DNA from: Fragilariopsis cylindrus CCMP1102
Lineage: Eukaryota > Bacillariophyta > Bacillariophyceae > Bacillariales > Bacillariaceae
NCBI GenBank assembly: GCA_900095095.1
Contig: FMBT01000448.1
Span: 35,908-99,907 of the forward strand
DNA length: 64,000 bases
Direction: 5' to 3'
Within the stretch, counting starts at the first letter, position 1. Every line of letters begins with the position of its first letter. Under the pieces are notes generated by a model that did not search any database, was not told where the DNA came from, and was given only the letters and a program-made list of their open reading frames with translations. The translations under genes were made by a program, and so were the position numbers. Positions 16,112 through 45,482 of this stretch are shown here, in pieces.

Positions 16112-16183
16112 GGTCCTCAATCTGGCTACGGACCATTGAACATAAACCCAATCTGGCGACGGATTTTTTAATCTGTTTTCCTT
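16112..16183 (+). repeat. Left terminal inverted repeat (72 bp)
   Basis: Begins GGTCCTCAATCTGGCTACGG and matches the reverse complement of 45401-45472 with 2 mismatches in 72 bp. It contains a 15-bp direct repeat, CAATCTGGC(T/G)ACGGA-like, at 16118 and 16149 (spacing 31 bp), which is a plausible pair of transposase binding sites. Confidence 0.95.
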
Positions 16184-16526
16184 ATCACCTAAACGTTGAT
16201 CGCGCACGTTATAAAAATGTTAATTATAGTTATTTCATCGTATGTGATCATCGCAAACTCTGTATTCCACGTGCCTATTGTCATTTGTTTCACTTCTGTA
16301 ATTTTCGCGCCAAGTACTTGTTATTTCATCCTTCGTATGCGATTATCGCCAACTTCATGATTTTATGTGCCTACTGTACCGTGGCCTACCGTATCTGTCA
16401 TTTGTCATTGCCACCCTTTTCCGTTTTCGCGTCAGTATTAGGAGCATTTTTATTGCCTGCAACATTTGTGTATCATTGACATAAAGTTTTTCTATCCAAG
16501 AGACATCGTCTCTCATTCAATCAAAG
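16184..16526 (+). promoter_or_regulatory. Subterminal region and likely transposase promoter
   Basis: Non-coding, with two diverged direct copies of about 90 bp (from about 16229 and 16319) sharing GTTATTTCATC, then ATGYGAT.ATCGC and GTGCCTA. Placed between the left TIR and the transposase ATG, so likely the promoter. No clear TATA position can be fixed. Confidence 0.45.
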
Positions 16527-19500
16527 ATGGTTGTTGACAACAATGCCCCACAGGGTGACACTTCTGCTGCTAGCAGCATCTTCCGGAAAAAGTTTCAGGA
16601 TAGGAATAATCAGTTTCATGAACAACAAAGGCTTCAGCTCGAGGAGTTCAACGCCCAGCAACAGAAGCTGCTGCTCCAAGAGCTTCAGGACAAGCACCAT
16701 CAGGTGGACAAACAAGATTTACACCTGCAATCACAGGAGGACCCACCATCTAATACTGTCGAGGACAGCAATATTTGCAGTTTTCGTGGAAGTGATAGTA
16801 ACGGTGACAAACATCAGGTTGCAATTCTCGGAACTACAAAGATGAATGTCGCAGTATCATCGGACGTGACAAAGGTCGCCTCAACGACAATGAATTCAAA
16901 ACATGCTATGACGGAACTTACTCAACCCACCTCTGTTGCATTGGAAATAGAACCGAGTGAGGGCATCGTATCATCGTCGTCTCCATGTGTAGATGAGTTA
17001 GATCATAGCAAAGATGACTGGATTGACAAGACTCTTGCAGACGACGAACACAAACGACAATGCGAGTTGTCCGATTCGGATGACGACGTCACTTCAGTGA
17101 ATAAACCAGATCCAGTCGATGGCGACATTTCCTTTGGGCAACTCCAAACGCCTCAGTCCTTCCAGAAAGTACAACAACTTACTCCTGGATCTGGCATTGC
17201 CACGGATAATTTACAAATGATCATGGATCCTCCTCACGACATCGCTGATTATGATGAGGATCACGGCAACAATAACATTGAGGAAGAACCTCAAGGAGAT
17301 AAAGACGAGGAAGTTCAAGAGCCACTACAAGCACAACAACCTGAAGCTGGCAACAATAACCTCAAGAACCATGAGGAAGAACCTCAAGGAGATAAAGACG
17401 AGGAAGTTCAAGAGCCACTACAAGCACAACAACCTGAAGCTGGCAACAATAACCTCAAGAACCATGAGGAAGAACCTCAAGAAGCTAAAGACGACGAAGT
17501 TCAAAATCGACCACAAGAAGAATATGAAGTTTCGACGGTGTGTGAAGACGATGACAGAGAAGATCAAGAGCAACAACAAGAAGAACAACCTGTTGACTCG
17601 TCAACGAGAGAAACTATTACAGAAGGGGCAGAGAAAGTACGCAAATTAGCTGGTGCGCGTTTTAATGATTTCGATTCAGGTGGATTAAACAAGCCTGCGA
17701 ACGATGACATCTTCTACGATATCTTCCCCAATCCAATGCATACCATGTGCGAGTTAAAAGTTAGACAGATCGAAGCAGACCATTTGCTACAAATAGCTAA
17801 AATCTATGCATACCGCAATTACGGAATAACCAAACTGGTATGGAAAGGTGGTCGTAGCGGTGCAACTAGGATCTACGGGTGCAAAAAGTGTGATTTCGAA
17901 ATGCATTTCGTTAAGGTCGAAAACACCAATAAATTTATATTAACCCAGAATGAAACTCACGAGAAGTGGAAAAATGCCTCTTTCCATCGAACAACGTGCC
18001 AAAAGCATGAAATATCAACCTGTACTACAAATGCCATCAAAGATACGCATATTGTTTTGAACCATCCGGATTTCTTAAAATCCTTCAAGCTATTTTTAGG
18101 TGACGATCCGATTCAAGCGGTTCATATAAAGACTGATGCCATATGTACTTTGATAGAAAATGAATTCAAAACCAAATACAAGCATAATGTCGGTTTTGGT
18201 GTACCGACCTGGAGCAAAATCGTTAACACCATGATCGATATTCTACATCGGAAAGCGGCGCTTCAGTATGCATTCTTGCCCGAGTTTTTGCTCGAACTCA
18301 TCGACAAAAACGACGAAGTGTCCGTAATGCTTCAAACAGACGAAGATGGCCGATTCCTCCGGTTGTTTGTTGGTTTACCAGCTGCACTACGTGTTGGAGA
18401 ACTCACCGTTCCTTACTACGTTGCAGACTGTTTTCACTACAAGTGCTCCTCCTACGACGGCGCTATGTTTGCCATTGTTTCAAAGAATGGTTACGGTGAG
18501 ACAGTGCTATTGGCCATAGCTATTATACCGATAGAAAAAACAAGACATCTTGGTTGGTGTATTGAGTGTTGTGTCCGACACGGTATGACGTTTACTTTCC
18601 CGTTGTTTACCAATCAAGGTCCCCTTCTTGCGACTGCATCTGCCTTATTTCTTCATGCGGATAGTTATTATCTGCTCATCCATCTTAATATTAGGATATG
18701 TGTAATTCATTTTATTCGTGGTGCAAACCACCAAAACAACATAAAAGAAATCGAAGGTACCATATCTAATTATGTGAACCAGGCAAGCCGAGCATTCAAT
18801 CAAGCAGAGTTCTTCAGCATTATATTACAAATGGTGAGGTCCATTGTTGCCAGTATCAACGAAACTGCTTTGGTTAATGCCATCGACATTGCCTTGTACC
18901 TGTTGAAGGTTGACCCAGTTCATTGGTGTGTTTTTCCCAACATTCCTATGTTTGATCAATCTGCTTTCGATGAACAACTATCGACTGTGATTTCAGACCT
19001 ATATTTTGTCCGAAACGTTTCAATCCATTCGAAAACACATTTGCAATCTGCAGATGATGATGAATTACACTTGCTAAATGTCTGTTGGGAAATGACAGAA
19101 AGCCAAATCGCTGCTTTGAAAAACAATGGAGAAAAAAAAAATCTAAAGCCGAAAGATCCAATTCGGGGTTTTTGGAATTGGACCACCAACATTGTTGAGG
19201 GTGCATCTCTGGCTACAAAGAGTATTGGTGCTCGTTATCAGCCGCCACACACCTCGATAAGGAACGTCCTGAAATACGCTGCCACTCAAACAAGACGGCT
19301 GACCGAAAATATTACCAAATCCCAAGACGTAGGAAACTATCTAACCAAAGTTGGTATGCGGATTAAAAGTGACATCGGTAACCAGGAACCAGTTACAAGT
19401 ATTATTTCCATTCAAAATGACCTACCAGAGGATACCGCTTGTGCCGATCATGGCGATAATTCCCGTATTAAGTCTACCAGATGTCGATTGCAGGGTGAAA

Positions 19501-22500
19501 GTTCCTCTTGGACAACCATTGTTTCATATGGGCATGCATTTCCACCATCTATTCGTTCTGTCTGCGAGATCCATATGATGATGTATGATGTAAACTGCCC
19601 GTGTAAATGTGTAATCCATATTTTTGAAAAGTCTAAATCATTTGTATCGGTGGGCGGTGTAACAGTCCCTGATTTTGCACCCGAATACCCTGAGTTCGGG
19701 CGTGGTTTATTTAAACACGTATTCCCCAGATGCTTTCAGGTAGATGATGCAATGCACGATGAATCCGTCCGAGCTCAGATAATCGTTCCAACTACACAGG
19801 ATGGTGGTCATAAATTCTTTCCCGTTACACCTATTGACATTTATGGCAACCGTGTGCATTCAGCACCAAATTTGTTGGTTCCACCTAAATTTACTGCCAA
19901 GTATTATCTTAACAATCCACGCATAATGTCTACAGGAGAAAGAGGTTATTTTAATTTTCGTGGAACTTACAGGAGAATGAAAGGACGATCTGGCCATCGT
20001 GAAAGTAGCGGTAGATTCTTTTGTCAGTATACGAGTGCCATGTCAGCTAGGAATGCAGTCCACCTCACCAACCCTACCGAAATCATCAGTAGTCATGCAT
20101 CTCCGGATGTAGTTGTGGACGATACGAATATAAGGAAAAGTCACTGTTGTAGACATTGCGGAAAAGAAGGACATACCGTAAATGATTGTGAAGCGTTTCA
20201 TACGTTTGATCAGGGCATCGTTTGCGATGATGATCCATCGATGGCTCAAGGTCACTACTTAGTATATCATACACCAAATAAGGTGTCCACTGAATACTTA
20301 CCATATGCAAGTGAATTAGCTAAGCCTCCTACTGTGGAATTGGTAGCACCTTCCACTTCTTCTGTTGCCGGCGATGGTTACGACTATCTATTTTTGTCGA
20401 GGAGCCTTCCCGGGGATGTAATTGATCAGGCGCTTGATCAAGGCCGTAGGCCAAAAGAAAAATCAGTTAGAAAAAAAAGAAATAAAGATCCCCTGGAAAG
20501 TCGATTGAGAGCTTTTGAGATTAGAACTAACCACCGTCCTACCAGTTCTTTATACCCAGGTGTCAACATGATTGAATTGAAGGGGGAATTCAGGAGAAGA
20601 AAGCAATTTAAAACCAGATTTGTTCGGGTGGGCGACCTTATTTCAAAAAGCAAGAGAGTTACATTGGCCGAAGAATTATTTATACTACGAGCTAACGAAA
20701 TTGAAAATCATAACTTCAACGAAGCTGTCGACGTTGTTGAAATTACCACTGCCGTTTGTCCACCAGAACCACCACCACCGCTTACTGAACCTGATTCTTA
20801 TACTAGCTCCGACGACAATTACATTGGCAATGTAACCACTTGTGTTTTATCTCGTTCAACCACATTTGCATCCTCCCCGTCGATGTATTTTGTACGTGAT
20901 ATGATTAGGTTGATTCCTCATCTAACGGATTGTTCCTTCAACACAAGTCCGAACCACAATAATACGGGCAATAATACGGGCAGTCGTCCGTTTAACCAAC
21001 TCACTCGAGATTCCGAAGAAGGTGACGACGGCAATAATAATATGGGCAGTCGTCCGTTCAACCAACTCTCTCAAGATTCCCAAGAAGGTCACGACGCCAT
21101 TATTTGTACGCCGATGACGCAATTGGAGAATCCTCTGTCGACTCAAGAGGTTCGGCACAATTCCGATGACGAAGTAATTGACGTCGACGGTCTGAGTGAT
21201 TGTTCCGACTCGGACGAACATGATGATGTTGAAATAAGTATGGAAACCATCCCTCTGTTGCACTGCATTGAAGGACTGAAATCTTATGATGTCCGGGAAC
21301 ATCAGTGTTTGATTCTGTGTAATTTAAGTGATAAGCCTCCTTCGTTTACATTCCGAAGGGACTTCGCAAATTCCAAGTCTAAGAACAAGTCTACGATCAG
21401 GATCCCTTTAAAAGACACCTTCATATTGTTTTCAGCCGATACGAACCCTCCTTTCTTTCGCTTTCAATACGCTAAGGGGACAAGTAAGATTTGCACTCTG
21501 TTCTTTTCCAAAGTACATCTTGACTCAGCGCTCCAAATGGTTTTCAATATCGGAGGTGATAAATTTGCAGGGCCGTTGCCAACGGTAACGGAAAAGATCC
21601 TCCAGCTGCTACCATCTACCTGTGTGACGGAATCTAAATTTAGCTACGAGGAGTCCTCTGAACAAGATGTTTTTATTCCTGCAAATGGAAAACATAAATT
21701 GCTGTTTATTTATCCATTAATTGTGTCCAAGCTGTCATTGAATGATGTTACTACGGGTTTAAGTATATATTTTACAGACTTCCCATTTGATAAGCCATTG
21801 GTCGAACCTTTAGATGCTTACAAAAAATCTGGAAGAAGAGGCCACCTTACCTCATCTAGTTCTAGTTTTAATGAGGTGGTCAGTAGGGTTACTCCCCACA
21901 TGGATCACTATCATGCTTTGGATGATACAGAGTGGTTGATGGATACCAACGTAGATTTTTACATGCTGTGGCTCACACGGAATTGCACCAAAACACTTGA
22001 CGCTTATTTCATGCCCAGATCGATATATGATCAGATTGATTTGAAAGGACCGAAAGCTGTGGTTAATATATTGAAAGCGAACAAGATCAATCTGGATGCA
22101 AAGTTAATATTTGTGCCTGTATGCCTGTCTGGACACTGGACGCTGATCGTTATCGTTCATCACACGGACATTGATGACTACCTTACTCGGAAACAATCAA
22201 GGGCAAAGCTGGATACATCTCGTTCCTTTCCATGTTTCTTATATTTTGATTCGCTTGGTTTTAATAGCTCAAATGCAAAATCTATACGAACGAAACTGTT
22301 AAGTTTACTCGCGGCCTGGAGAGAGGATCAAAATCTGGAGAGAGGAATGGTCGACATCGCCGATAATAATAATAATAATAATAACCCTTTCGTCGGATCA
22401 CCCCGAAAAATCATGCCCCTGTGCGTAATTAAAGGTGTGTACTCATAGCTGACAAATATCAGCCATTTTCCCCGTTGCATCTACAATTTCATTCAGATAA

Positions 22501-24529
22501 TGTCTAATCGGACTTGTCAACTCATTCATTTTTTTCCTGTTCGCACTCCTGTTATTATTAAATATTTATTACAGTACCACATCAGCCTAATGGTAATGAT
22601 TGTGGAGTATTTGTATGTTTCTTTGCATATGCTTTGTACAAATTCGTCATTGATACCAGTTATAAATTTCCAATGGATGATGCTGTTTCGGACACAGCCA
22701 AACTTGGTAACCAAATATTAAGGAATTGCTTTCCGGTAATGTCGTCATCCTCTGCATTCGCTGCCATCGAAGAGGACCCCGCTTACGCACAATTATTTCG
22801 GAAAGAAATGCAACGTTTATATACTAAGTTGCATCGATTATATCTTTCAGTTGTACAGGTGCAGAAAAAAAAGAAAGCCGCACTCAAAACTAATTCTGAC
22901 GCCCATGCTGCTTCAACGACACAAGAACCTAATCATTCGAGTACAGCTAATGTCGCAGTAAATGATGTCGCAGTGGAAGCACAAGAAGAAGAAGATAAAG
23001 ATCAAGACGAAGATCAAGAAGAAGAACCAACAGATGAAGTATTACGATCACATATTAAACGATTAATTCCATTAGTGAATTTACAATATACTGGTGTGAA
23101 AGCATTTACTAAATTATTATCAAAAGAATGTGGTGGTGCTAATCTGAAACCACGTTCAAAATTTATTGAACAAGCATTATCGGATGCGATTAATGCAATG
23201 GATGAATCGGAATCGGAAGATGAATCGGAAGATCAAGAAGAAGAACCAACAGATGAAGTATTACGATCACATATTAAACGATTAATTCCATTAGTGAATT
23301 TACAACATACTAATTGGAAAGCATTTAAAAAATTATTATCAAAAGAATGTGGTGGTGCAAATCTGAAACCACGTTCAAAATTTATTAAACAAGCATTATC
23401 GGATGCGATTAATGCAATGGATGAATCGGAATCGGAAGATGAAAAACCAGAAAAGAAAAAAAGAGCCACAGGATTATTAATGAAAAAAGAAATTTCATCA
23501 GAACTTGCCTCATTCATGGGAATATCATCCCCAGTCGTTGCTCTATCTGAAGATCAAGATATCGTAGCTCCCATCGTCCTCAACGAAGATGCTAGCGGTT
23601 TCTGCGACAGTGACAGTGACAATGAAATTCCTACTTCACCTCACAATACTAGGTTTGCTATGAAAAAACGAAAATTAGCTGAGGAAAGAAACGCTGTTTG
23701 TCCTGATGGTCTTGCGGTGGACATTAATCCGCCAGTCGTTGCTCTAGCTGAAGATCAAGACATCGTAGCTCCCATCGTCCTCAACGAAGATGCTGGCGGT
23801 TACTGCGACAGTGACAGTGACGATGAAATTTCTACTTCACCTCACAATACTAGGTTTGCTATGAAAAAACGAAAATTAGCTGAGGAAAGAAACGCTGTTT
23901 GTCCTGATGCCAAAAGGAAGAAGGCTCAGGAACTAGTGGAATCCTTGCTCCAAGGTTCGAAAGAAGCAGTGAAACGTCAAGATCGGATGGATAAAATTGA
24001 TGAGCGCAATAGCTTATTGGGTGTTGTAAACATTCAAGAATCCACTAATGATCCAAAACTATTCACTAGAAGAAATCCAGAAAATGTTCAACGCAGTCTC
24101 CTAAATTATGTTAACGAGGAACAACCAGAACGACTTTGCAATTTGACTACTTATGCTGAGTCTCTTGCGTCCATTAAATCACAACCTCGAGACGAGTTGA
24201 TAGAGGGTAATCGACAAAGAATGATCGCCCTTATAAAGAAATGGGGTGACGGTAGAACAAACCCTTACCGTAAATCAGAAAGAGATAGTATTTGCGATGT
24301 ACTATATAATATTAAAAGGTATCAAATATCACCCTCAAAAGAATTAGAGATTCCAGATCTATTTAAGTATTTTACGGAACGTATAAATCGAAGTCGAAGC
24401 GGTGCAGAAATATCGCCAGACCAACTGGACGATCTTATGGACAAGTATGGGCCTTTCAGTGAGATCGCAAAAACACCAAGAAGGAGTCCACGAGGCCAAC
24501 GTAAATCATCACCAAAAGTTGTAACTTAA
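16527..24529 (+). CDS. MULE transposase fused to Ulp1-like protease with DEK-C-like repeats (2,620 residues)
   Basis: Exons 16527..22434 and 22575..24529 (140-bp GT-AG intron). Residues 1-370 are acidic and Gln-rich. A WRKY/GCM1-type zinc element lies at about 440-495 (GCKKC...HRTTC). The DDE-like core has D634 (VADCFHYK), N696 where the second Asp is expected (FTNQGP), C725-H728 (CVIH) and E761 (NQAEF), followed by NIVEGASLATKSIGARYQPP. A CCHC zinc knuckle is at 1208-1221. The C48 protease has H1870 (GHW), D1908 (YFDSLG), Q1973 and C1979 (QPNGNDCGVF); the intron separates His/Asp from Gln/Cys. Two DEK-C-like repeats lie at about 2119-2185 and 2189-2250, and a second duplication at about 2288-2414. 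It should cut and join element ends. The role of the protease is not known. Confidence 0.88.
17280..17490 (+). repeat. 93-bp coding tandem repeat in the transposase N-terminus
   Basis: Units start at 17280, 17373 and 17466 (2.3 copies). They encode EEEPQ(G)DKDEEVQEP-type acidic repeats. The first two are nearly identical, so the duplication is recent. Confidence 0.85.
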
Positions 24530-25030: not shown

Positions 25031-25693
25031 ATGTCCGAAGATAGTTCTAATCCTAACTGTGATTCCCCCGTCCTAAATGAAACGACTAATTCATTGATTA
25101 CATCCTCTACGGATACTGTCTACGTAAAATCATATTTCCGAAGACGATCTAAATCGGTCCATTCGAATCCTAAGCATTCTGTACGTCCCCACCTAATGGA
25201 CCCGGCAACTTTCAAACAGGTTTTGAATACTCAGAAAGAAAATTTGGCGGAAGTCAAAGAACGTCAGAGATGTAACACAAGCATCCTGCATCACAAACAC
25301 GAGTGGAAGACTTTTTTTTCTAACAAAAAAAAAAGAAGAAGAGCAAAACCTCGGTTTGTCTGGCAAACAAAACAAATTAATCAGAACAAGGCTGAAATGG
25401 AGTTCATCAAATCAATCAACAACCTAAAAATACCAATGGAAACTGATTTTATCTGTGATAAAATTCAGAAGAATGCTACGAAATCTGATCATGAAGTTGT
25501 AGTTAATCGTGATTTGGTCCCAATGACCGAGACAAGGATGGACGTTGACAACTTTGACGATGGTCCTGATTTTGAGTCAGAACCAGAAGGTGACGACTCA
25601 ATGACGATTTCTTCTTTGAGAGAGAGTCCAACTCAGCTATTCGGAGATTCCGACCATGTGGATGACGACGAAGGTGAATTTCTGTTTGAATAG
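25031..25693 (+). CDS. Small basic/acidic nuclear-type protein, unknown function
   Basis: 220 residues from the first ATG (MSEDSSNPNCDSPV). The centre is basic, with a nuclear-localisation-like run (NKKKRRRAKPRF, residues about 97-109), and the C-terminus is strongly acidic (FDDGPDFESEPEGDDS and DDDEGEF). No domain recognised. It is transcribed in the same direction as the transposase, 500 bp downstream of it. It could be a chromatin- or DNA-associated accessory factor, but only composition supports that. Confidence 0.55.
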   Translation: MSEDSSNPNCDSPVLNETTNSLITSSTDTVYVKSYFRRRSKSVHSNPKHSVRPHLMDPATFKQVLNTQKENLAEVKERQRCNTSILHHKHEWKTFFSNKKKRRRAKPRFVWQTKQINQNKAEMEFIKSINNLKIPMETDFICDKIQKNATKSDHEVVVNRDLVPMTETRMDVDNFDDGPDFESEPEGDDSMTISSLRESPTQLFGDSDHVDDDEGEFLFE

Positions 25694-26255: not shown

Positions 26256-26744
26256 CCAGTTGCTCGGATGGAAGATATTCCCATTTACCCATTGCTTAGC
26301 GTTGCGTGTTATGGCAGTTACAGTTTTACGGTTCGCCGAGAACACTGTTTCCGTCAACACTGACGGAAACAGTGTTCTCGGCGAACCCCGAAGCAGTTAA
26401 TTTTAACCAATTAGAACATTCTGCCGTTTGAATAATATTTGCCGTTACACTCTGCTTTGTCGCGCGTAAAAAGTAACAGTTGCTCGGATGGAAGATATTC
26501 CCATTTACCTATTGGGTAGTTTTGCGTGGTATTATCAATCAACTCGGCGAACCACAAAGCAACTTATTTTAACCTGTTTCCGTCAACACTGACGGAAACA
26601 GTGTTCTCGGCGAACCCCGAAGCAGTTAATTTTAACCAATTAGAACATTCTGCCGTTTGAATAATATTTGCCGTTACACTCTGCTTTGTCGCGCGTAAAA
26701 AGTAACAGTTGCTCGGATGGAAGATATTCCCATTTACCTATTGG
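26256..26744. promoter_or_regulatory. Left array of the 40-bp palindromic motif (three copies)
   Basis: Copies at 26256-26295, 26476-26515 and 26705-26744 follow YCAGTWG-N7-GGAA-N4-TTCC-N7-C(C/T)A(T/C)TG(N), a diverged, inverted form of the array at 36.4-37.0 kb. They lie upstream of the H1-like gene. The two-fold symmetry suggests a dimeric binding protein. Confidence 0.6.
26330..26387. repeat. Perfect 27-bp hairpin, left copy
   Basis: Arms 26330-26356 and 26361-26387 are perfectly complementary with loop ACAC. The arm begins GGTTCGCCGAGAACACTG. A half-copy recurs at 26575-26616 and a 32-bp version at 36826-36893. Confidence 0.95.
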
Positions 26745-26803
26745 GTAGTTTTGCGTGGTATTATCAATCAACTCGGCGAACCACAAAGCAACTTATTTTA
26801 ACC
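26346..26803. repeat. 229-bp tandem duplication
   Basis: Units 26346-26574 and 26575-26803 are almost identical. Each includes half of the hairpin and one copy of the palindromic motif. A partial third unit begins at 26804 (AATTAGAACATTTTGCCG). Confidence 0.9.
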
Positions 26804-27364
26804 AATTAGAACATTTTGCCGTTACCGTTTGTTATCATTCATACATTGGTGTCAATGTGGAGTTGGTATCAGTAGCCAAGAAGGTAGATATACCGTTTTA
26901 CCTTGTGCCTAGTTTTGCGTGTTATTTTTTATTAGCTAATCGGATGGTTGGTCGACTTCGGTCAAGTATGGATGTCGATGTCGAAACCATGGTGGTACAT
27001 GACTATGAAAATGGAGCAGCAATACCGATAAAAGGGGAACTGTTCCATGTTAGCTACTTATGTATTTTGCTCGTTGTTTGCATGTTGTCCGTTAGTCGTA
27101 TATCACACATACCGTGGAAATTCATACCTCATACCGTGGAAATTCATACCTCATACCGAGGAAACTCAAACCTCAACAAAACATGTAACATTACGTCTTC
27201 CGTTGTAATGTGCGATAGTTCCACGATGAAATCAAATTTCTAGTGTCGATTCTTCCGATAATAACGTTACCAAGCACACATTTGGTACCGGTAGCTCATA
27301 AAATCTGAATGGAACACAAAACAACACAAAACTAAATAAACTATAATTGCTATTCATACACACA

Positions 27365-33718: not shown

Positions 33719-36178
33719 TTACTGCATTCCTCGCGTTGTAGAAAATCGTCTGTCCGCAGATTGTCCTTTTTTGTCGAAATATGCGCAGCCTTGAGCCGGA
33801 ACACGCCTGCCAAGCTTCCTTTTCGAGGCAACCTTTTCCTCCAAAGTTATCAACCGTATTTTATGTTTATTTCCTGAATCTTGACAATCAACCAACACAG
33901 CTGTACTATCATCCTTGTTGCACGTAGTCCACTGCTTACCTTTGAGATATTTCTCAAGTCGTACGTCGAATCCGGCAATAAGACCGAGATGACTCGTCAA
34001 AGTCGTATTAGTCAGGGTATTTTGTCTGCTCAGTGTTTCAAAGTTTTTTTTTAGTTCCTGCGTCAAACACCGCAATTTTTGGGTCGCCAAATCGGCAAAC
34101 CCAACCACACATGTTCCCATACTTCGAATTTTTTTTATATCTTCCATGATATCGAATTCAACCGCATCTTTTTCTTTCTCCGCTTCTATGTCTGCACAAT
34201 GTGTCTCATTATCATCTTTTCGTTTAATCTTTAGACTCGAACTGTGCCCTGGTTTTTTTATATTACCGCACAAATCCTCATTCGGTTTGTTACTCTGTAA
34301 CCTCGAACTATGCCGGGTTTTTTTCGTTTTACCGTATGAATCATGAGCCTCATCCTCATCCTCATCCTGTATGTTACTCTGCTGCCCTAAACCGTCTTTC
34401 ACAGCATCTGCTGCTTGACTCGTCAGCCGCGAACTCTGCCTCCGGGGTCTCTTTTCACCAAATGAATTACTGGCATCATTGTCCAACGCAACCTTTGACG
34501 TGATATTACTCTCATCGTCACTGTTGATGTTACGGCTGTCACTACTTTGCCGCCTTTTTTTGGTTTTACCGCATGAATCATGAGCCTCATCCTCATCCTG
34601 TATTTTATTCTGCTGTCCTGAATCGTCTTCCTCATCCTGTATGTTACTCTGCTGCCCTAAACCGTCTTTCACAGCATCTGCCGCTTGTCTCGTCAGCCGC
34701 GAACTCTGCCTCCGGGGTCTCTTTTCACCAAATGAATTACTGGCATCATTGTCCAACGCAACCTTTGTCGTGATATTACTCTCATCGTCACTGTTGATGT
34801 TACGGCTGTCACTGCTTTGCCGCCTTTTTTTGGTTTTACCGCATGAATCATGAGCCTCATCCTCATCCTGTATTTTATTCTGCTGTCCTGAATCGTCTTC
34901 CTCATCCTGTATGTTACTCTGCTGCCCTAAACCGTCTTTCACAGCATCTGCCGCTTGTCTCGTCAGCCGCGAACTCTGCCTCCGGGGTCTCTTTTCACCA
35001 AATGAATTACTGGCATCATTGTCCAACGCAACCTTTGTCGTGATATTACTCTCATCGTCACTGTTGATGTTACGGCTGTCACTGCTTTGCCGCCTTTTTT
35101 TGGTTTTACCGCATGAATCATGAGCCTCATCCTCATCCTGTATTTTATTCTGCTGTCCTGAATCGTCTTCCTCATCCTGTATGTTACTCTGCTGCCCTAA
35201 ACCGTCTTTCACAGCATCTGCCGCTTGTCTCGTCAGCCGCGAACTCTGCCTCCGGGGTCTCTTTTCACCAAATGAATTACTGGCATCATTGTCCAACGCA
35301 ACCTTTGTCGTGATATTACTCTCATCTTCAGCAAATGAATTACTGTCATCATCGTCCACCGCAACCTTTGTCGTGATATTACTCTCATCGTCACTGTTGA
35401 TGTTACGGCCGACGCTACTCTCGTGTCCATCTTGCATAACTTGTGATGCACCAGGTTGTACTACTGACACCAGCCTGGAATCGGCTTCTGCTAGTAGAAA
35501 TTTGATCACTTTCGACATGTCGTGGGAGTACTCACGGTGCCATTGAGTCACAATATAATCAATATTATAAATATTAATGAACAATTCCGCCGCCCATGTT
35601 TTCATTGCTTCCTCCCACGACCGCATATATTCGACTATCTCTTTAAATTCACCTACTACTATAATGGTATCATTACGTATTTGTAAAATATGGGATGTAT
35701 TTTGGTTTTGGTATATATTGATAATATACCAACGCGACAATGCGATATAGAATTGCAGACGCTTTAAAGCCTTCCTATACGTTGATAGTGAGATAGTTAA
35801 TTTCTCTGAATCTTCAATACTGTGTTTTAGTTTGGTGTACGCAGTTTCAAGACCAGAAAAGGAGGTACGTATTTGACGAAATACGTAAGTGCATACCATC
35901 TTTTCTTGGAAAGAATGAACATTCTCTTGTAGCAATAAGATGTTATAAGGTCTTACTAGCAGAGGATGTTGATCTAAATCAGAAACCCAGTAAATACACG
36001 ACATCATCAATACCGCGTTGGACAACACGCCGATGGATGATTGATTGCTATAAGCTATAGCCATCGCAAATTGCTCGAGCAATATATCACGATCGCAATA
36101 TAAGCCACCCAAATGAAGTATCAGGTGCTTCATATCACAGTGCAAATTTTTCCAATATTCGGAATTTGTCGCAGTCAT
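33719..36178 (-). CDS. 819-residue protein with 90-residue tandem repeats, unknown function
   Basis: Single exon from ATG. Residues 1-230 form a helical, mostly non-repetitive domain with several Trp and Tyr. Residues about 260-610 are 90-residue repeats, each with RNINSDDESNITTKVALDND, then GEKRPRRQSSRLTRQAADAV and EDEAHDSCGKTKKRRQSSDS. They alternate acidic and basic (RRQSSRL) elements suited to a nuclear, phosphorylated, disordered region. The C-terminal 190 residues include a short coiled coil (LATQKLRCLTQELKKNFETL). No known family recognised. The gene shares a divergent promoter region with the zinc-finger gene. Confidence 0.7.
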   Translation of the reverse strand: MTATNSEYWKNLHCDMKHLILHLGGLYCDRDILLEQFAMAIAYSNQSSIGVLSNAVLMMSCIYWVSDLDQHPLLVRPYNILLLQENVHSFQEKMVCTYVFRQIRTSFSGLETAYTKLKHSIEDSEKLTISLSTYRKALKRLQFYIALSRWYIINIYQNQNTSHILQIRNDTIIVVGEFKEIVEYMRSWEEAMKTWAAELFINIYNIDYIVTQWHREYSHDMSKVIKFLLAEADSRLVSVVQPGASQVMQDGHESSVGRNINSDDESNITTKVAVDDDDSNSFAEDESNITTKVALDNDASNSFGEKRPRRQSSRLTRQAADAVKDGLGQQSNIQDEEDDSGQQNKIQDEDEAHDSCGKTKKRRQSSDSRNINSDDESNITTKVALDNDASNSFGEKRPRRQSSRLTRQAADAVKDGLGQQSNIQDEEDDSGQQNKIQDEDEAHDSCGKTKKRRQSSDSRNINSDDESNITTKVALDNDASNSFGEKRPRRQSSRLTRQAADAVKDGLGQQSNIQDEEDDSGQQNKIQDEDEAHDSCGKTKKRRQSSDSRNINSDDESNITSKVALDNDASNSFGEKRPRRQSSRLTSQAADAVKDGLGQQSNIQDEDEDEAHDSYGKTKKTRHSSRLQSNKPNEDLCGNIKKPGHSSSLKIKRKDDNETHCADIEAEKEKDAVEFDIMEDIKKIRSMGTCVVGFADLATQKLRCLTQELKKNFETLSRQNTLTNTTLTSHLGLIAGFDVRLEKYLKGKQWTTCNKDDSTAVLVDCQDSGNKHKIRLITLEEKVASKRKLGRRVPAQGCAYFDKKGQSADRRFSTTRGMQ
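34371..35330 (-). repeat. 270-bp coding tandem repeat (about 3.5 copies)
   Basis: The same sequence recurs at 34371, 34641, 34911 and 35181, exactly 270 bp (90 codons) apart. The inner copies are nearly identical, so expansion is recent and in frame. Confidence 0.92.
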
Positions 36179-37238: not shown

Positions 37239-39124
37239 ATGTTTTCAGGTAACGAACACGATGACAACCAAACCATGGAAAGCCACGTGGACATTACGGA
37301 TCCCAACGTTGAAGTCAATAAAGGAAAAGAAAAAAGGATCTCGCCTTACAAGGTTGCACCAATTACAGATCAAGATAAAATCGATCAACTGTTCAGTAAA
37401 AATGGTGATACTGGTGCTTTTTTTGTAACCGTTGCATGCAAGGAAAAAGAAACCCAAATTAGCATGATAGCGCCGTATTGCACACCAACAATGTACTATG
37501 TATGTTACAAATGTGGAATGGCTAGCCAAGAAGGTCGCTCAGTAGAAACCCATATCAAAACTTGTGTTACCACAAATAACAAGAAATCAAACACGAATCG
37601 TAAAGACACGGAAAAAAAAATTAAGGTTGACAGGATCTTTTCGAAAAAAGTACCAAGATTTGGTTGGTACAACGGCGAACGGTACTTGGTGATTGAAGAA
37701 TGTCCTTACGCATTCTCTTGTGTTTGCGGAGCAGCATTTAACAGTGTCCGTAGTTTACAAGTTCACTTCAAGAAATGTCCATACACAGAAAACATATTTC
37801 CAATGGTTGGTTCAGGTTGTGAGAATTTGGATGAATCGAACCAAAAAGATCAGTAAATGATACGGAATATCACATTAAGTCTAACAGTAACCGGTGCGGT
37901 TTCGATGGAAGGGGCGTATCTAATTTGAAGTTTTGCTGCAATATTCCTAGCAAAGACATGTTGACAGGACAATGCAGAAATACTAATGAAGAAAAGAAAC
38001 GCTACCAGATGATCAATAGATGTAGGGACATAGACAGGATTATAAACAAATATTGGGATGAGATAGTTCATTTAGTGGATCTAAAATCAAACACAAATGT
38101 GTATAGCGAAGAAGAGATAAATCAATGGGGAGCACGTTCCATTCAGTGTGATCGGAAAGAGATTGGTGTAACAAGTGAAGTTGTCACCGATAACCGCGGT
38201 GTCGTGATAAGAACGAGAGGCAACGAATGCTGGAGGAGAATAGAAAAACAATACAACATCAAAGAAGTTTGGATGAGTGAAATTCTAAAATTTGCTAGAG
38301 GGATTGCGCAAGCGGACACCACGAAAGGTGATTTTATGAGTTTTGATTCTTTCTCGTTAATACTGACAACAAGTAAAGAGACGCAGCAGGAACACATTGA
38401 TCTTCTGCCTCCACTTTCCCAGTTCGCGCTTACCATTTCAAATAACGTTGATACGACAATTGCATACAGATTAAGAAAAAGTGTAAATGAGGTTAATTCC
38501 ATGGTTTCTCTTTGCGCACTGTTGCAATCTCAAATGAATGAACGCGAAAAAACGGATAAGTTCAAAGAATTGATTATAAAAATCAAAAACATAAGCAAAC
38601 ATTCATTAGCCGGAAAGATGATTGAGGATGAAGGTTATGGTCAATTATTCCAGATGAAAATCAAAAACAAAAATACCACGACAAGTAAGAATTCGATCTT
38701 CGAACGTGCCTACATTAAACATGCTCCTACGGGAACCTACACACGAATCAGTGGCGGTGTTGTTCATAGTGGGTCAGGTGTCGCGGGACGACGTGTGCGT
38801 TGTATATTGTTTTGGAGTGGTAAACCTGTTGGCGATAAGGAAATGTACGACCCAGAGGTGCAACAGACAATGTTTTCAGTTATGATCGAAGTCATCCGAG
38901 AAGTGTGGATTAATAACATTGACGACGGTTCTTTAAGAAGGGAAATGGTGCAGTTATTGTATCATGTGTACCAATTGTGTGGTAAACAATATAAAAAATA
39001 TGGACAAGCCTATCCCCACTTGCCAAAAATTGAGGAAATGATTACAAAATTTGATATTAAAAAATCAGATAATACATGGGAAACCATGATAGAGGATGTA
39101 GCGATAACAACTTTATTTGAATGA
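37239..39124 (+). CDS. Zinc-finger protein with a frame change or short intron at about 37850
   Basis: The first frame (37239-37856) encodes two fingers, YVCYKCGMASQEGRSVETHI-KTC and FSCVCGAAFNSVRSLQVHFK-KC. The second frame, open from 37835 to 39124, begins with RCGFDGRGVSNLKFCCN, which looks like a third finger of the same type, then a domain of about 380 residues with no known family (it includes ISGGVVHSGSGVAGRRVRCI). The frames can be joined by a GT-AG intron 37853..37950 (98 bp, loses the third finger), by a 35-bp GT-AG intron 37853..37887 (keeps it), or by a one-base change in the A5 run at 37843-37847. All three restore one protein of about 600 residues. A DNA-binding accessory role is inferred. 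Confidence 0.65.
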
Positions 39125-39528: not shown

Positions 39529-40848
39529 CTAGAACCTTATATGATGAATTTCTCTACTCCTTTTTTTCCTTTCAAAATTTACTTCTGAAAACAATCGTCT
39601 TTTAATGGAAGGACCATTATCAGAACTTGTTTTTTGTTTATCCAAAATCCATGGTTTCAAATCTGTATTAAGTGATCTGAGAGAATTGAATAATACACGA
39701 TCAATTTGGCAATCATAGTTAGTTTGGCGTTTAACCGGCAGGCCATCAAAGCACACAGTATAATCACAATCGTCGCTTAAATAGATTCTACCAAATGCCA
39801 GCACAGCTACGTCATCTCCTGGTTTAGTTGGTCTGATCGATGATACAGTGTGTGGAAACAGCCCAAATTGTAATGTCCGTGCGTAGGTATATTCCAATAA
39901 GTCAAGCCGATAGTCGAATGTAACCTTGTCGGACGAATATTTTGATTTATCTTTACTATTTGTATCGTATAGATACGAATCATCCGTAACCAGCCTCACA
40001 ACGAAAAAAGTACCCGTCTCAATTTCAACTTTATGGAGGAAATGTCCGTAAAAAACCTTAGCAACTTCGTCACCAGCGCGAAACGAAAAAGATGGATTTT
40101 CTGTGGGACGATTTTGAATGTGATGCTGGATACACGAATTCCACTTGGTTGTGTCCCTCTTATTTAGTAACCGGTAGCTAGAACCAGAACAGGTGTCCAG
40201 AATAGAGTGAGATTTCAATGAATTAAAATTGGCGGTGCATTTCAAACACATCAAATCCTGATCAAAAAAAAGTTTCGATGGTGATGTACAAATTGAAGAA
40301 CCGTCTAAAATAGACCTATGGTTATAAACTGCACCGCATATACCGCCATTTGGCAAAACAATCCAATCTTGTATTGATGGGAGCGAGGGGATGATTTCCT
40401 GGAGTGAATACTCCGTTAAATTGTTACGGTGCCAGTTGTATAAAGATGATGGTATGATCTGATCAACAACGACGGGTGTACCCAATCTGCGTGGTTGATC
40501 TGGGTTTTTAATGTAGAAATCGTCTACAATGATACGCAATAATGTGTTGATGGGTAGTATACGGTAGTTAGTTATTTGAACTATATCGTTTACGGTCAGT
40601 TTAGGTATGATCCGATTACATGACGGTGACAATAACCCTTGAACGAAGTGTGTACCGTCACTTAGAACAACTAGATAACGTTTCACTTCGGTGTCTTCTT
40701 GTTTGACCAGGTGTATCCTCATATGAATTACTTGGACTATGATAGTATATCCTCGTGCATCTGTACCTTTTGAGTGGAGCATCGTTTGGATTGAATTTTG
40801 CGTCAGGGTTGCTTGTATGCTGTTTACGCTGTGGTCATCGAAAGTCAT
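39529..40848 (-). CDS. RPA70-type OB-fold (single-stranded DNA-binding) protein
   Basis: 439 residues from the first ATG (MTFDDHSVNS). Residues about 13-114 fit the N-terminal OB fold of replication protein A large subunit: TIIVQVIHMRIH, then RYLVVLSDGTHFVQGLLS, ...IVQITNYRILPI and LRIIVDDFYI. The family has RyrlvLSDG.h.iqamL. A Cys pair region follows (CLKCTANFNSLKSH...DTC). The C-terminus (PGDDVAVLAFGRIYLSDDCD) is unrecognised. In RPA this OB fold recruits partner proteins; here it could protect or mark ssDNA during transposition or repair. RPA-like genes are unusual as transposon cargo outside Helitrons. Confidence 0.78.
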   Translation of the reverse strand: MTFDDHSVNSIQATLTQNSIQTMLHSKGTDARGYTIIVQVIHMRIHLVKQEDTEVKRYLVVLSDGTHFVQGLLSPSCNRIIPKLTVNDIVQITNYRILPINTLLRIIVDDFYIKNPDQPRRLGTPVVVDQIIPSSLYNWHRNNLTEYSLQEIIPSLPSIQDWIVLPNGGICGAVYNHRSILDGSSICTSPSKLFFDQDLMCLKCTANFNSLKSHSILDTCSGSSYRLLNKRDTTKWNSCIQHHIQNRPTENPSFSFRAGDEVAKVFYGHFLHKVEIETGTFFVVRLVTDDSYLYDTNSKDKSKYSSDKVTFDYRLDLLEYTYARTLQFGLFPHTVSSIRPTKPGDDVAVLAFGRIYLSDDCDYTVCFDGLPVKRQTNYDCQIDRVLFNSLRSLNTDLKPWILDKQKTSSDNGPSIKRRLFSEVNFERKKRSREIHHIRF

Positions 40849-41726
40849 ACTAGTAGTAAGGAGCGAGGTACGGCACACCGTTTAAACTTGTGAGTAAATT
40901 CTCGTCTGTTTTTTATGCGACAAAGACAAAACTATGATTTGGTGTTAGTAGTCGTAGTAGTCTGGAGTAGACTGTACAGTAGTCTGTTGCGAGTGAGTGG
41001 GTGTCACTAGGAAGCAAGCAACATACGTAGTGCCAAAACAATTATTGTAAATGAGAATATGAGGACAAAAAATTATATAACTAATCTGACCACGGAACGT
41101 TCGGGACTAAGACCTTTTAATCCCAGAGGACTAATTCGATTGAACAATATATCATGGGAAATAGGTACTAACAGAAATAAGGAACTGTAGGAGTACCGTA
41201 CCGTGTATCGTAGTGATAATGTTGCCATGCAGGTACAGTAGTCCATACGTTAAACGAGGTTGATCATCAATAGAAAGACAACGAAATACAACGGTAGAAG
41301 GTAGAATTAAATCGGACAAAGATATATCAATCGACTATAAACGAGTAACACTCCGAAACGCTCCTCTCTACCCACCCAGCTTCAACAGACACACGAACCA
41401 GCGCAGCAATATTCATTGGCATAACAAAATAATTAACAAAAAAGAAACTTCCTTTAGAAACGTCTCCAAATCCGTTTCGTAAAAATGGAGTCTATTCAAA
41501 AACCACCATCTCAAACCAACTTGTATAAAACCAATGAATCTCAAAAACAGCCGCATATGGCGTTAACAAACCACAAAATATTAAAGTTGCAACTGTCACT
41601 TGGCATAACAACATTCTAACCATTCCACCCACAAATAACAAACAGTCGCCATCATCGCACAAAACAAATTATAAAAAAAACACAAAACTATCAGACACTA
41701 CCGCATCCTATTTCCAAATCACCACA
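40849..41726. other. Divergent spacer within the element
   Basis: Lies between the starts of the RPA-like (minus) and PHD (plus) genes and so holds both promoters. AT-rich, no repeat motif of the 36-kb array found, no gene recognised. Confidence 0.4.
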
Positions 41727-43901
41727 ATGGCGCAACGACCGAATGCACTTTGGAACGAGGAAACACTGGAACTACCACAACTCATTGCAGTAACTGAACA
41801 GATGAAGACGACGCTACAATCAGTAACTACTACAACCCAACGCTTGCGCCAAGAACAGAACCAACTAGAAAGAGACGCGGCAGACAAAGTAAAAATTGCA
41901 AAAGAAAAGAAGTCAAGATATGATAAAGAAAGGAAAGAAATCCAGGGCCTACAAAGATTGGCAGTCATTAAACAGAATAATCTGGACCAACTGAAGCAAC
42001 AGGTAGATGTAATTGAGGCTGCTGTAGTGACAATCTCAACGGAACTGAATGCGAAGGAATTAGCGATCCCCGATGAAAAGAAAGCAAAAGAAAAAGCAGA
42101 AAAGGCAGCAACGTTGGCAGAAACGGAGCTGGATGCAAATGAATTAGCGATCCGCGATGCAGAGAAAGAAAAAGAAAAAGCAGAAAGGGAAGCAACGTTG
42201 GCAGCCACTAAATCCTCCATCTTAGTTGAAGCACACAGAGCAATAGGACTAAAGTTCTCAGAGGCTATGAAGGATTATTTTGAATACGACAAGTGGAGTT
42301 TCCCCGACTCCGTAATCTTAAAGATCACCGCAATCCTCTATGTATTCTTTGACCTTCCATTGTATCTCTCAAGAGCTAAAGTTGAACTAATCATGGGATA
42401 CGAACCTCACAACCGAGGTTTGAGGTACGCATTATCCATTATGATTGATAAAAAAATGTTGATCGGTCGAAAACACCGCGATGGTAACACCCGGTATTAC
42501 CTCGGATATGTAGCCGACGAAATCCTACAACGTTATGCAATGCCACAAGCTGACATATATACCAACTATATCGCCATCCGTATAAACAAGGGGCAGGATC
42601 ACATCCGTAAACGTAAGAGAGTATATGAAAATCGTAAAGAAGGAAAAAACTCATCAGACAACGACGCATCGGACGACTCAACTGACAGCCATACCATCGA
42701 CACCGTCAACGAGTACAATTGCGAAAGTTGCGGAGATGGGGGTTCATTAATAATGTGCAGTATTTGTGATAAGACATATCACAAACATTGTCTTGATCCT
42801 CCTTTGGACCAAGTTCCCGAAGGTGAATGGTATTGCCAAGAATGTTGTACGGACCCAACTGGTAGTGGGGGAGCAACAAACGCATCAACAGTCACCCCGG
42901 GAACAGACCAAAAATGTTGCGGTAAAGTGCGAGACTCGTCGGATTCCTCTGCATCTACCAGAGATTCAGCCTTCAGCGTGATGGAACCAAAAAAACTTCT
43001 AGATAATATCGAGTACGCCTACACAGGCCTATCTTGGAAAGTGGAAGTGTTCAAACTTTTCATGGGATGCTACCCTGAAAAGAATTTGGAAAAGAAGTTC
43101 TCTCATCCTTGCGGCTTCCTGAAGCTGGTCGACGAGATGGACATGGACAAAAAGAACTTGTGCATCCTGTTGGAGGAAGATTTCCTGTTGGAGGAAGATG
43201 GGATCCCCAAGGCCGATCATTCGGAGAACCGTCTAGTAGCGTTGCACCACTTGTTCTGCGATGATCAAAAGCAGCTGATTGGATTCAGAGGCCCAAACTT
43301 CAATGATGCTGTTATTATCAGTTTAGACAACCTAAATGCACCCCACGGTTGCTTGGAAAGAGGAGGTAAAGCACTGGACTTGTACGATGAAGCCAAAAGG
43401 GTCAACTCCATCCCTGGATACGATAACCTAATGGCGGCGAAAAGCGTTCGGGAATTCATGACGGATAATCCGGCACATTCCCTCAGCCATAGGAAACTGG
43501 CCAAAGCATGGGGTTCGATCGATACGAGTATCATTATTGACCTAAACTTGTTTGGGCAACTACTAGAAGTATTTGGGAATGACACCGGCACAACCAATCC
43601 GGAAGCTCTACTTTGCTTCTTGAAAGACTCTAAGCTGTCCGAGCACAAGCTGGACAAGTTGATTTCTTTCGTTTGGGCATCAGCTAGTGGCTACAACGAC
43701 AGCAACGCTCTTACCAAGCTCACGAAAGCGCCGATGAATAATGAGTGTGCAGATTTCAGGCAAGGGTATCACACGTTTAAGGAACAACACAGAGATCGTT
43801 TGCTAGCAATGCCAGGGGCGCCGGAATCCCTGGAAGCTCTACATCTTCCAGAAGACAATGACAATGACGACAGATCCGTTCCTGGTGACCTCGTCATTTA
43901 A
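41727..43901 (+). CDS. Coiled-coil, winged-helix-like and PHD-finger protein
   Basis: 724 residues, single exon. Residues about 20-155 are a charged coiled coil (Lys/Glu/Ala heptads, with an internal duplication around KEKAEKAATLAETELDANEL). About 165-275 looks like a winged helix (SRAKVELIMGYEPHNRGLRY to DGNTRYYLGY). A canonical PHD finger spans C332-C373: CESCGDGGSLIMCSICDKTY, HKHC, EGEWYCQEC. The C-terminal 300 residues have no known match. PHD fingers read histone H3 tail methylation, so the protein could guide the element to particular chromatin or modulate its own. That role is inference. Confidence 0.75.
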   Translation: MAQRPNALWNEETLELPQLIAVTEQMKTTLQSVTTTTQRLRQEQNQLERDAADKVKIAKEKKSRYDKERKEIQGLQRLAVIKQNNLDQLKQQVDVIEAAVVTISTELNAKELAIPDEKKAKEKAEKAATLAETELDANELAIRDAEKEKEKAEREATLAATKSSILVEAHRAIGLKFSEAMKDYFEYDKWSFPDSVILKITAILYVFFDLPLYLSRAKVELIMGYEPHNRGLRYALSIMIDKKMLIGRKHRDGNTRYYLGYVADEILQRYAMPQADIYTNYIAIRINKGQDHIRKRKRVYENRKEGKNSSDNDASDDSTDSHTIDTVNEYNCESCGDGGSLIMCSICDKTYHKHCLDPPLDQVPEGEWYCQECCTDPTGSGGATNASTVTPGTDQKCCGKVRDSSDSSASTRDSAFSVMEPKKLLDNIEYAYTGLSWKVEVFKLFMGCYPEKNLEKKFSHPCGFLKLVDEMDMDKKNLCILLEEDFLLEEDGIPKADHSENRLVALHHLFCDDQKQLIGFRGPNFNDAVIISLDNLNAPHGCLERGGKALDLYDEAKRVNSIPGYDNLMAAKSVREFMTDNPAHSLSHRKLAKAWGSIDTSIIIDLNLFGQLLEVFGNDTGTTNPEALLCFLKDSKLSEHKLDKLISFVWASASGYNDSNALTKLTKAPMNNECADFRQGYHTFKEQHRDRLLAMPGAPESLEALHLPEDNDNDDRSVPGDLVI

Positions 43902-44187: not shown

Positions 44188-45132
44188 TCATATTTGGCGA
44201 GTTTCCTGTTTAATTGTTTTGTCAGGCGACCGACGAGTTTCAGGTTTAATTTTTTTGTCAGGCGACATAGGAATCACATGCGGTGGAGTAGAGGAGAAGT
44301 TATTTGCCTCGGGAATTGGATCATGTTGTGGTTGGTGGGCATTTTGAATATAAGGCGGCTGCAGGATTGGGAGGGGATGGGGTAGTTGCTGTTGCTGATG
44401 ATTAGCTATCGTCCTGCGGCGTCTCTGAGATTGGTAATGTTTTGGGGTAGGTATATCTGCCACCGGATGACGACAACGACGTAGAATATGGTGGAAGTTT
44501 CTGTGCCTACCCTCAAATTGAATGGGTATCCCTTGCCACGGTTGCAGGCACTGGGGACATGAAAATGAAATGTCAGGGACGCAAGTGCTGTGAACTATTA
44601 ATGCACAATTGTAACATGTCGAGGAGGTTCCATTGAGGAAAGAGGGGCAAAGCCCACATTTACCGGAAGTGTACGAAAGACACAACATGGTAGTCTTTGG
44701 ATCCAACATGTGTCGATGGAGCGGAACTGTTTGGGTTAAGTGCATAATGTGAACTGGATTGATGATATTCAAACCAGAAATAACTGTGACACCAAGTCGC
44801 TGAACAATGAAAAGGACGTGTTTACATGGGTTAGGTGTGTCGTCGCACGAACATGATATAGACTTTAAGGCGAACGTAACCTTGTACTCATTTCCGTAAG
44901 ACCCAGTTATATGAAAACACGGTTCCGAAAAAGAACGTGAGGGGGTGTCCAGGATATAAAATGATTCAATGTTGGACTTGCGCAACTTTTTTGCGGGTAC
45001 GATCCATCTTAAATGCAGATCATCATCGTTGGTGGTTCCAGAAGAACGATGACGGGAGATCCGTTGCCGGTTCATGATAACCGCATCGGCAAACTGGGCG
45101 TAGGTTCGGTTGCGGAAATTGTTGTCGGTCAT
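44188..45132 (-). CDS. SWIM and C4HC3 zinc-finger protein
   Basis: 314 residues. A SWIM finger lies at C94-x-C96-x6-C103-x-H105 (SISCSCDDTPNPCKHVLF). A compact C4HC3 PHD/RING-like finger follows at C159, C162, C173, C176, H181, C184, C192, C195. The tail is Pro/His/Gln-rich and ends in a repeated PxSPDKxIKxETR. SWIM domains are normally fused to the C-terminus of MULE and Zisupton transposases; here it is a separate gene at the opposite end of the element, 270 bp from the right TIR. A role in end binding with the transposase, or as a ubiquitin/SUMO ligase, is possible but unproven. Confidence 0.8.
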   Translation of the reverse strand: MTDNNFRNRTYAQFADAVIMNRQRISRHRSSGTTNDDDLHLRWIVPAKKLRKSNIESFYILDTPSRSFSEPCFHITGSYGNEYKVTFALKSISCSCDDTPNPCKHVLFIVQRLGVTVISGLNIINPVHIMHLTQTVPLHRHMLDPKTTMLCLSYTSGKCGLCPSFLNGTSSTCYNCALIVHSTCVPDISFSCPQCLQPWQGIPIQFEGRHRNFHHILRRCRHPVADIPTPKHYQSQRRRRTIANHQQQQLPHPLPILQPPYIQNAHQPQHDPIPEANNFSSTPPHVIPMSPDKKIKPETRRSPDKTIKQETRQI

Positions 45133-45400
45133 GGTGGTGAGTTGTGAGGGAATTGATTGTTCAGAATGCTTTATTATGATTTATGGTTTTCATACGCAGA
45201 ATGAAACAAATAATTTGTGACAGTGACATCTGATGGACCTGCCGAGGTACAAACCTCCTTTCTGCAAACTAATAACTAATATTTAAGAACCGTTATATTT
45301 GAGGAGGGAACACATGAATGAAGCAAATGCGAACAACATTCAAAATTATGTATCGATTTTCAACGGTAGTAATAACGGTTTTGTGCGATATGGAAATAAG

Positions 45401-45472
45401 AAGGAAAACAGATTAAAAAATCCGTCGCCAGATTGGGTTTATATTCAACGGTCCGTAGCCAGATTGAGGACC
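45401..45472 (-). repeat. Right terminal inverted repeat (72 bp)
   Basis: Reverse complement of 16112-16183 with 2 mismatches; the outer end reads ...TTGAGGACC. Same internal direct repeat. Confidence 0.95.
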
Positions 45473-45482
45473 CAGAAAATAC
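45473..45482. repeat. Right target-site duplication
   Basis: CAGAAAATAC, identical to 16102-16111. Confidence 0.95.

Follow-up and report, generated by a model that had tools for sequence, protein, structure and literature searches.

We report that positions 16112 to 45472 of a 64,000-nucleotide stretch of the diatom Fragilariopsis cylindrus CCMP1102 (contig FMBT01000448.1, positions 35,908 to 99,907; hereafter the window) are very probably a single inserted member of a Mutator-like (MULE) DNA transposon lineage whose elements are giant and multigene. The element is bounded by 72-bp terminal inverted repeats (TIRs) and a perfect 10-bp target-site duplication (TSD), and codes for a predicted MULE transposase amid seven further genes. 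Comparison of assembled loci across the same genome demonstrates that 20-50-kb units with a common gene module were inserted several times with a 10-bp duplication.

Boundaries and empty site of the window element

The original prediction had described 72-bp inverted repeats with two mismatches, enclosing 29,361 bp and abutted by a perfect 10-bp duplication, and direct comparison bore this out. The two repeats match at 70 of 72 positions over 29,361 bp between their outer ends, and the duplication is confined to 16102-16111 and 45473-45482 when both strands of the window are searched:

16102..16111, no strand: left target-site duplication CAGAAAATAC, with one copy at the empty site on C375
16112..16183, plus strand: left TIR, 72 bp, from inverted-repeat comparison
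45401..45472, minus strand: right TIR, 72 bp, from inverted-repeat comparison
45473..45482, no strand: right target-site duplication CAGAAAATAC, an exact repeat

Assuming a per-base match of 26%, the chance of 70/72 matches at one pair of places is ~10^-38, against ~2x10^9 pairs. A scan of exact repeats of 9, 10 and 11 bp that lie over 1 kb from each other (18,265, 5,794 and 2,069 pairs respectively; words with 60 or more copies excluded) returned three pairs with at least 20 of 30 inverted end bases: the element pair scored 28, and the other two, which are parts of one internal palindrome, scored 23. The best value in five base-shuffled windows (10-bp words only) was 16-18. Inside the left TIR lie two direct repeats, AATCTGGCTACGGACC (16119) and AATCTGGCGACGGATT (16150), whose starts are 31 bp apart and which are candidate transposase-binding sites. 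Across the genome searched (67.9 Mb in 818 contigs) the window TIR is found at these two places only, and thus the window's own subfamily is single-copy in the assembly.

An empty site, which had been proposed as a check on mobility, was recovered on C375. Searched against the same genome, the right flank matches C375 at 92% over all 1,528 bases, its remaining matches being itself and 14 short ones. The C375 locus crosses a single CAGAAAATAC into the 14 bases to the left of it (24 bases in total, 16088-16111), and beyond a separate 894-bp difference (15194-16087) it matches the left flank at 97% over 1,493 bases. With flanks 92-97% identical, one CAGAAAATAC and no element, this locus looks like the site before insertion. 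The 894-bp stretch itself, which lies just left of the element and is missing from C375, has no clear TIRs.

Gene content and the predicted transposase

The original prediction counted nine genes; eight of these (A-H) are supported, and the ninth open reading frame (ORF; 26749-27243) is without support. The genes and associated features are as follows:

16527..24529, plus strand: gene A, MULE transposase with CCHC knuckle, Ulp1/C48 protease and DEK_C; predicted intron 22435-22574
18612..18614, plus strand: codon AAT (Asn) at the second catalytic Asp position of the DDE triad; Asp in 5 of 5 relatives
25031..25693, plus strand: gene B, orphan protein with 35-36% identical stretches in the C83, C306 and C86 elements
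26330..26803, no strand: two 229-bp repeats with a 58-bp palindrome (27-bp arms), from repeat analysis
27365..29062, plus strand: gene C, orphan, open stretches 27365-27751 and 27752-29062 in the same frame with one stop between
29519..36178, minus strand: gene D, large protein with the 2-oxoglutarate (2OG)-Fe(II) dioxygenase signature HxD...H...R, uninterrupted in public proteins P0001 and P0002
32801..33807, no strand: 1007-bp insertion in gene D with a perfect 23-bp TIR (GGCGTGTTCCGGCTCAAGGCTGC) and a 4-bp duplication TGCC, missing from P0001 and P0002
36370..37113, no strand: intergenic region between the divergent genes D and E, with iterated repeats and a 58-bp palindrome at 36831-36888 (one mismatch), from repeat analysis
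37242..39124, plus strand: gene E, best conserved accessory protein, with a zinc-finger-like N-terminus; frameshift at ~37835-37856
39529..40881, minus strand: gene F, RPA1-N-domain protein (Rep-A_N E=5.7e-9)
41538..43901, plus strand: gene G, PHD-finger protein (PHD E=3.4e-9)
44188..45180, minus strand: gene H, SWIM finger with a RING/C1-type Cys/His cluster, reading inward; ORF starts 292 bp inside the TIR end

Gene A combines two ORFs (16485-22448 and 22562-24529), read as one gene across a 140-bp intron (22435-22574) that we infer from GT...AG and the frame. Its product contains D648, N710 in place of D, C739-x2-H742 and E905 (numbering from 16485), in the order D-D-C2H-E that we take to be that of MULE transposases. 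Three relatives passed among 3,073 candidates, of which P0005 is 98% identical overall, while P0006 and P0007 are 64% and 59% identical within the searched region. In alignments of these with the C83 and C86 products the motifs DCFH, TDQGP, C-x2-H and TN-x2-E are conserved in all five relatives, identifying gene A by its motifs as coding for a MULE-type DDE transposase. The only transposase family among the Pfam matches is PF10551, at a sub-threshold level. The whole ORF matches DEK_C above the curated cut-off and Peptidase_C48 just below it, and a profile comparison of the C-terminal part recovered SENP2 (E=6e-4), with the His, Asp and Cys in place by eye. P0005 and P0006 both end at the stop within the predicted intron, which suggests that the public proteins P0001 and P0002 of gene D are intron-blind calls. 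Gene A also contains in-frame repeats of 93, 66, 219 and 201 bp. Genome-wide it has eight matches, namely the window, C83, C306, C154, C86 and three partial ones to the N-terminal or Ulp1 parts (C59:78347, C477:27259 and C669:10751), which may be relics or further elements.

Related giant elements in the same genome

The C83 element (C83:295232-324845) spans 29,614 bp, with TIRs matching at 57/60 of the first bases and the TSD GATGTTAAAC. An alternative fit gives an 8-bp TSD with TIRs one base longer; we chose the 10-bp reading because the ends then equal those in C306. The C306 element (C306:85790-135290) spans 49,501 bp, with TIRs as in C83 and the TSD TATCTCGCAT. These two share blocks of 7,356, 6,347, 4,805 and 1,572 bp at 99.85, 99.80, 99.52 and 99.43% identity, as well as shorter repeat-type matches at 77-100%; C306 is rearranged relative to C83, and the right flanks of the two sites do not match. 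The joined flanks of C306 are 100% identical to C261:2612-2911 over all 300 bases, a second empty site, and C154 has an end of the C306 type, flanked as in C306, together with part of gene A. An empty allele of the C83 site was sought in the genome and none was found. The C86 element (C86:17816-38314) is 20,499 bp long; its TIRs, of about 90 bp, match at 87%, and its TSD is ATTAAAACCT. It sits within an abundant repeat, and many of the repeat's other copies continue through the junction point (the listing has 51 matches, including the element's own two flanks and some that do not span the junction, with 40 of 136 candidates scored). On C587 a C86-type TIR (92%) stands next to a SWIM gene that is 95% identical to its C86 counterpart. 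The further copies that had been proposed as a check, sharing their ends but flanked by different 10-bp duplications, were seen in the sister family C83/C306 and not in the window's own subfamily, which is single-copy.

TIRs are present throughout (72 bp at 97%, 63 bp at 95% and about 90 bp at 87%), and an exact 10-bp TSD is seen in four of the four elements with both ends read. The available text of a MULE survey (PMC6446971) gives a TSD range of 8-11 bp. It likewise describes SWIM as the zinc finger of many single-ORF groups; such a finger is found here, though on the separate gene H. The TIR and TSD, the motif order and the related elements together uphold the Mutator-like identity that had been proposed.

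Gene A of C83 (295599-304046) is divided by a single stop into two open stretches of the same frame, and its gene D (309597-313591) lies in two overlapping frames, such that this copy may, like the window copy, be damaged. Within C306 we noted nested LTR (long terminal repeat)-retrotransposon-like ORFs at C306:104642-118998 (at least one retrotransposon, its type assigned by eye) and identical 236-bp repeats 5.5 kb apart.

A conserved, collinear gene module

Gene order was compared over the stretches read in each element (in C306 with 119,001-133,727 outside the reading), gene D being represented by its second part for C83, C306 and C86. In the window the order is A+, B+, C+, D-, E+, F-, G+, H-. 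C83 has A+, B+, D-, E+, F-, H-, that is, six genes in common with both order and orientation kept, at identities of 28% for A (21% in its Ulp1 part), 35% for B, 26-27% for D, 39-43% for E, 29% for F and 31% for H. C86 shows the mirrored order H, F, E, B, A, and C306 the mirrored order H, F, E, a piece of D, B, A. By these comparisons the core set is A, B, E, F and H (three of three independent elements) along with D (two of three), genes C and G being found in the window element only, among the elements compared.

The C83/C306 blocks at different sites, the empty site of C306 and the collinearity between the window and C83 together indicate a lineage of giant MULEs that is old and mobile and whose accessory set is conserved, comprising predicted RPA-like, SWIM-RING and 2OG-dioxygenase-like proteins and two orphans. 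Cut-and-paste transposition has left traces only, in the form of empty sites and different TSDs. The original prediction had inferred recent mobility from the near-identical ends; mobility is supported by the empty site and related copies, and the ends do not serve as a clock. At their different sites, C83 and C306 show identical differences between the left and the right TIR, hence their ends differed before they moved, and we dropped TIR mismatches as an age estimate.

Tandem repeats with palindromes also recur: in both the window and C83 one set lies between D and E and a second to the left of D, each in intergenic DNA, and C86 has a single set near E. Palindromes passing the filter (arms of at least 11) number two in the window, two in C83 and one in C86, and the flanks have just two, both of triplet-repeat type. 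That these arrays are binding sites or origins is a guess.

Accessory genes

Gene E has the clearest record of constraint. Between the window and C86 its nonsynonymous and synonymous divergences (dN and dS) are 0.24 and 1.18, giving a dN/dS of about 0.20, which is indicative of purifying selection between elements; against C83 dS is saturated. It is uninterrupted as one ORF in C83, C86 and P0011, has weak Pfam zinc-finger matches only, and has 24 relatives among 5,702 public-protein candidates, falling into at least three groups, one near each element.

Gene D is, by motif, a predicted 2OG-Fe(II) dioxygenase-like protein: H125, D127, H212 and R226, presumably the metal and cofactor residues of a 2OG-Fe(II) oxygenase, are invariant in four alignment rows including a relative at 29% identity. 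Its gap was considered as an intron; that reading was dropped given the TIR and TSD of the insert and the uninterrupted P0001 and P0002, splicing across the insert still being possible. The insert holds a second inverted repeat of 122 bp. Gene D further contains a 270-bp in-frame tandem repeat (34352-35330; 3.6 copies at 99%), with fewer copies in P0001, and a weak, below-cut-off RuvC-like Pfam match in this repeat region.

The Rep-A_N domain of gene F is recovered in all three elements compared (5.7e-9, 4.6e-9 and 2.4e-9). Two RPA-like genes elsewhere in the genome, on C85 and at C83:244863, which we assume to be host RPA1, are 20-22% identical to the window F and 32-33% identical to the C83 and C86 versions over about 90 residues. 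The latter values are as close as those of the elements to one another, and F may therefore descend from a host gene acquired long ago.

In gene H the SWIM and RING/C1-type ligands are invariant in three of three elements compared; Pfam reports SWIM as significant in the window (3.2e-5) and weakly in C86 (0.0013), and does not list it in C83. The stop-to-stop SWIM ORF starts 292, 312 and 279 bp inside the TIR end in the window, C83 and C86 respectively. Over the stretches read in C83, C306 and C86, genes C and G are both without a significant match, and the stop between the two open stretches of gene C is perhaps part of an intron. Parts of gene G match many loci (36 matches including itself, many to the PHD finger alone), with its C-terminal piece on C771 at 55% and its middle piece on eleven contigs at 27-33%; these pieces perhaps belong to another mobile or expanded gene family.

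State of the window copy

Three lesions, namely the Asn at position 710 in place of the second catalytic Asp, the frameshift in gene E and the insertion in gene D, suggest that the window copy is probably disabled. Lying amid long open frames, they suggest that function was lost lately or that the copy relies on others. Public proteins free of these lesions exist, A, D and E having 97-100% identical counterparts; P0011 is 100% and 99% identical to the two parts of gene E and uninterrupted. We had considered an intron at the break between the E parts and dropped it, as P0011, C83 and C86 point to a frameshift, which is possibly a sequencing error.

Alternative explanations

Several observations weigh against an old lineage of giant MULEs with a conserved gene set. 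On the side of the insertion, C375 could be a close paralogous segment instead of the other haplotype, its empty site could in principle stem from precise excision, and the TIR search recovered no second copy of the window subfamily in the assembly. As to the transposase, PF10551 matches the window core alone at E=0.0056, under the curated cut-off, and three relatives at a sub-threshold E of 0.017-0.12, and a search with the whole window gene A ORF missed it, with no transposase family at 0.01. As to the shared set, the second part of D finds no match in C86, nor do G or C in C83, and the 18.9 kb scanned in C306 have no palindromes of the above kind. For gene D, neither Pfam nor PDB gave an oxygenase match by sequence, the assignment resting on motif spacing, and Pfam found nothing in its second part or in P0001-P0004. 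The roles of the accessory proteins are putative throughout.

The best surviving alternative, an unlikely one, is that the element is a non-autonomous, Pack-MULE-like derivative, in which a smaller MULE recently took up unrelated host genes. The confinement of C and G to the window element, the 36 genomic matches of G (many to the PHD finger alone) and the resemblance of the RPA-N part of F to the two RPA-like genes would fit such an origin. However, A, B, D, E, F and H recur collinearly in C83 at 21-43% and five of the genes in C86, and gene E is constrained between elements; this collinearity and constraint contradict a recent capture of the core genes. Pack-MULEs are defined by host fragments and the lack of their own transposase, whereas here gene A lies inside the element and the core genes are collinear in relatives.

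Still less probable is a Polinton, a virus-like element or another type of giant element (KDZ, EnSpm or Sola) that is not a MULE. Polintons (Mavericks) carry genes for a protein-primed polymerase, an integrase and a capsid, and have a short TSD of about 6 bp. The size, TIRs and many genes are features in common, and KDZ, EnSpm and Sola-1 giants are known in Ectocarpus, as the accessible part of PMC12477816 relates. Against this, Pfam matches of the 14 ORFs in or overlapping the element include no polymerase, capsid or retroviral-type integrase, and the TSD is 10 bp in all four elements; the motif order is that of a MULE, with PF10551 as the sole, sub-threshold, transposase family match. We rejected a viral origin, as viral contigs gave no confirmed relative (with a few short patterns per scan) and such domains were not found.

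That the repeats and enclosed genes were wrongly joined in assembly is hardly credible: the element occurs once and is known from the assembly alone, but other contigs hold elements with collinear genes, the near-identical public proteins noted above exist for A, D and E, and the empty site matches both flanks.

Proposed mechanism and comparison with known elements

For a giant MULE of this kind we propose that the gene A transposase would bind the TIR, perhaps via the two AATCTGGC-type repeats, cut the element out and reinsert it with a 10-bp stagger. The stand-alone SWIM-RING protein H probably assists DNA binding. Passage through host chromatin and repair is probably aided by the Ulp1 domain, D, the RPA-like F and, in the window copy, the PHD protein; these may strip off SUMO or methyl marks and may coat single strands while gaps in so long an element are repaired. 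The window copy, once mobile, would now move only if a relative supplied the proteins. A more far-reaching proposal, which we put forward tentatively and hold to be somewhat less probable than its negation, is that these elements are giant eukaryotic transposons of a new class, with a MULE transposase at their core. In this proposal a long-conserved accessory module (a SUMO protease fused to the transposase, a 2OG dioxygenase, an RPA1-like protein, a stand-alone SWIM-RING protein and the zinc-finger protein E) and palindrome-bearing arrays would erase silencing marks and support replication or gap repair of the element's own 20-50-kb DNA.

The original prediction set the element apart from known MULEs with one or two genes, and this agrees with the MULE groups as described in the available text of PMC6446971, which have 1 or 2 ORFs. 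Among these, MULE-Diatoms (group 37, Dupeyron et al. 2019, PMC6446971) is listed there with 1 ORF, a TIR of 123-124 bp and 'no TSD and not indicated'. Compared by description only, it is like the window element in its MULE transposase, SWIM finger and TIRs, and unlike it in that the latter has about eight genes, a 72-bp TIR, a 10-bp TSD and the SWIM on its own protein. The Ectocarpus giants of the KDZ, EnSpm and Sola-1 types are generally >10 kb, some >30 kb (PMC12477816), and in that partial account resemble the window element in size, accessory genes, nested insertions and broken transposase genes; they belong to other transposase superfamilies, and MULEs are not among the giants it names. 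Enlarged TIR transposons with extra genes also include Chondrus EnSpm families of 16-20 kb with 4-5 ORFs and Pack-MULEs of at most 7 kb (PMC6431247, in the sections available), the former not being MULEs and the latter being far smaller and carrying gene fragments. From the accessible portion of PMC12730594, fungal TET/JBP-bearing DNA transposons, Vandal and SET-bearing MULEs offer parallels in having chromatin-modifying genes aboard, and for the dioxygenase idea; protein D has the HxD...H...R signature only, its membership in TET/JBP being hypothetical.

The fusion of a protease to the transposase invites a further comparison. Kaonashi-type MULEs of plants carry Ulp1. They thus resemble the window element as MULEs with an Ulp1/C48 protease, and differ in that here the protease lies in the transposase gene and there are many more genes. 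Among the literature titles and abstract starts searched there was no giant multigene MULE, subscription papers being thinly covered, such that this is no proof of absence.

If correct, this reading describes a MULE lineage that moved as 20-50-kb units and, across deep divergence, retained no fewer than five or six genes in collinear order, a non-viral example among eukaryotes of a transposon whose multigene toolkit is conserved. It would allow the upper size of cut-and-paste transposition to be tested in nature, and suggests that such elements bring along anti-silencing or repair functions of their own.

Other observations

A tRNA search gave nothing of use for the element. The sole Rfam match is a 5S rRNA gene at 6327-6445 of the window (89 bits), outside the element.

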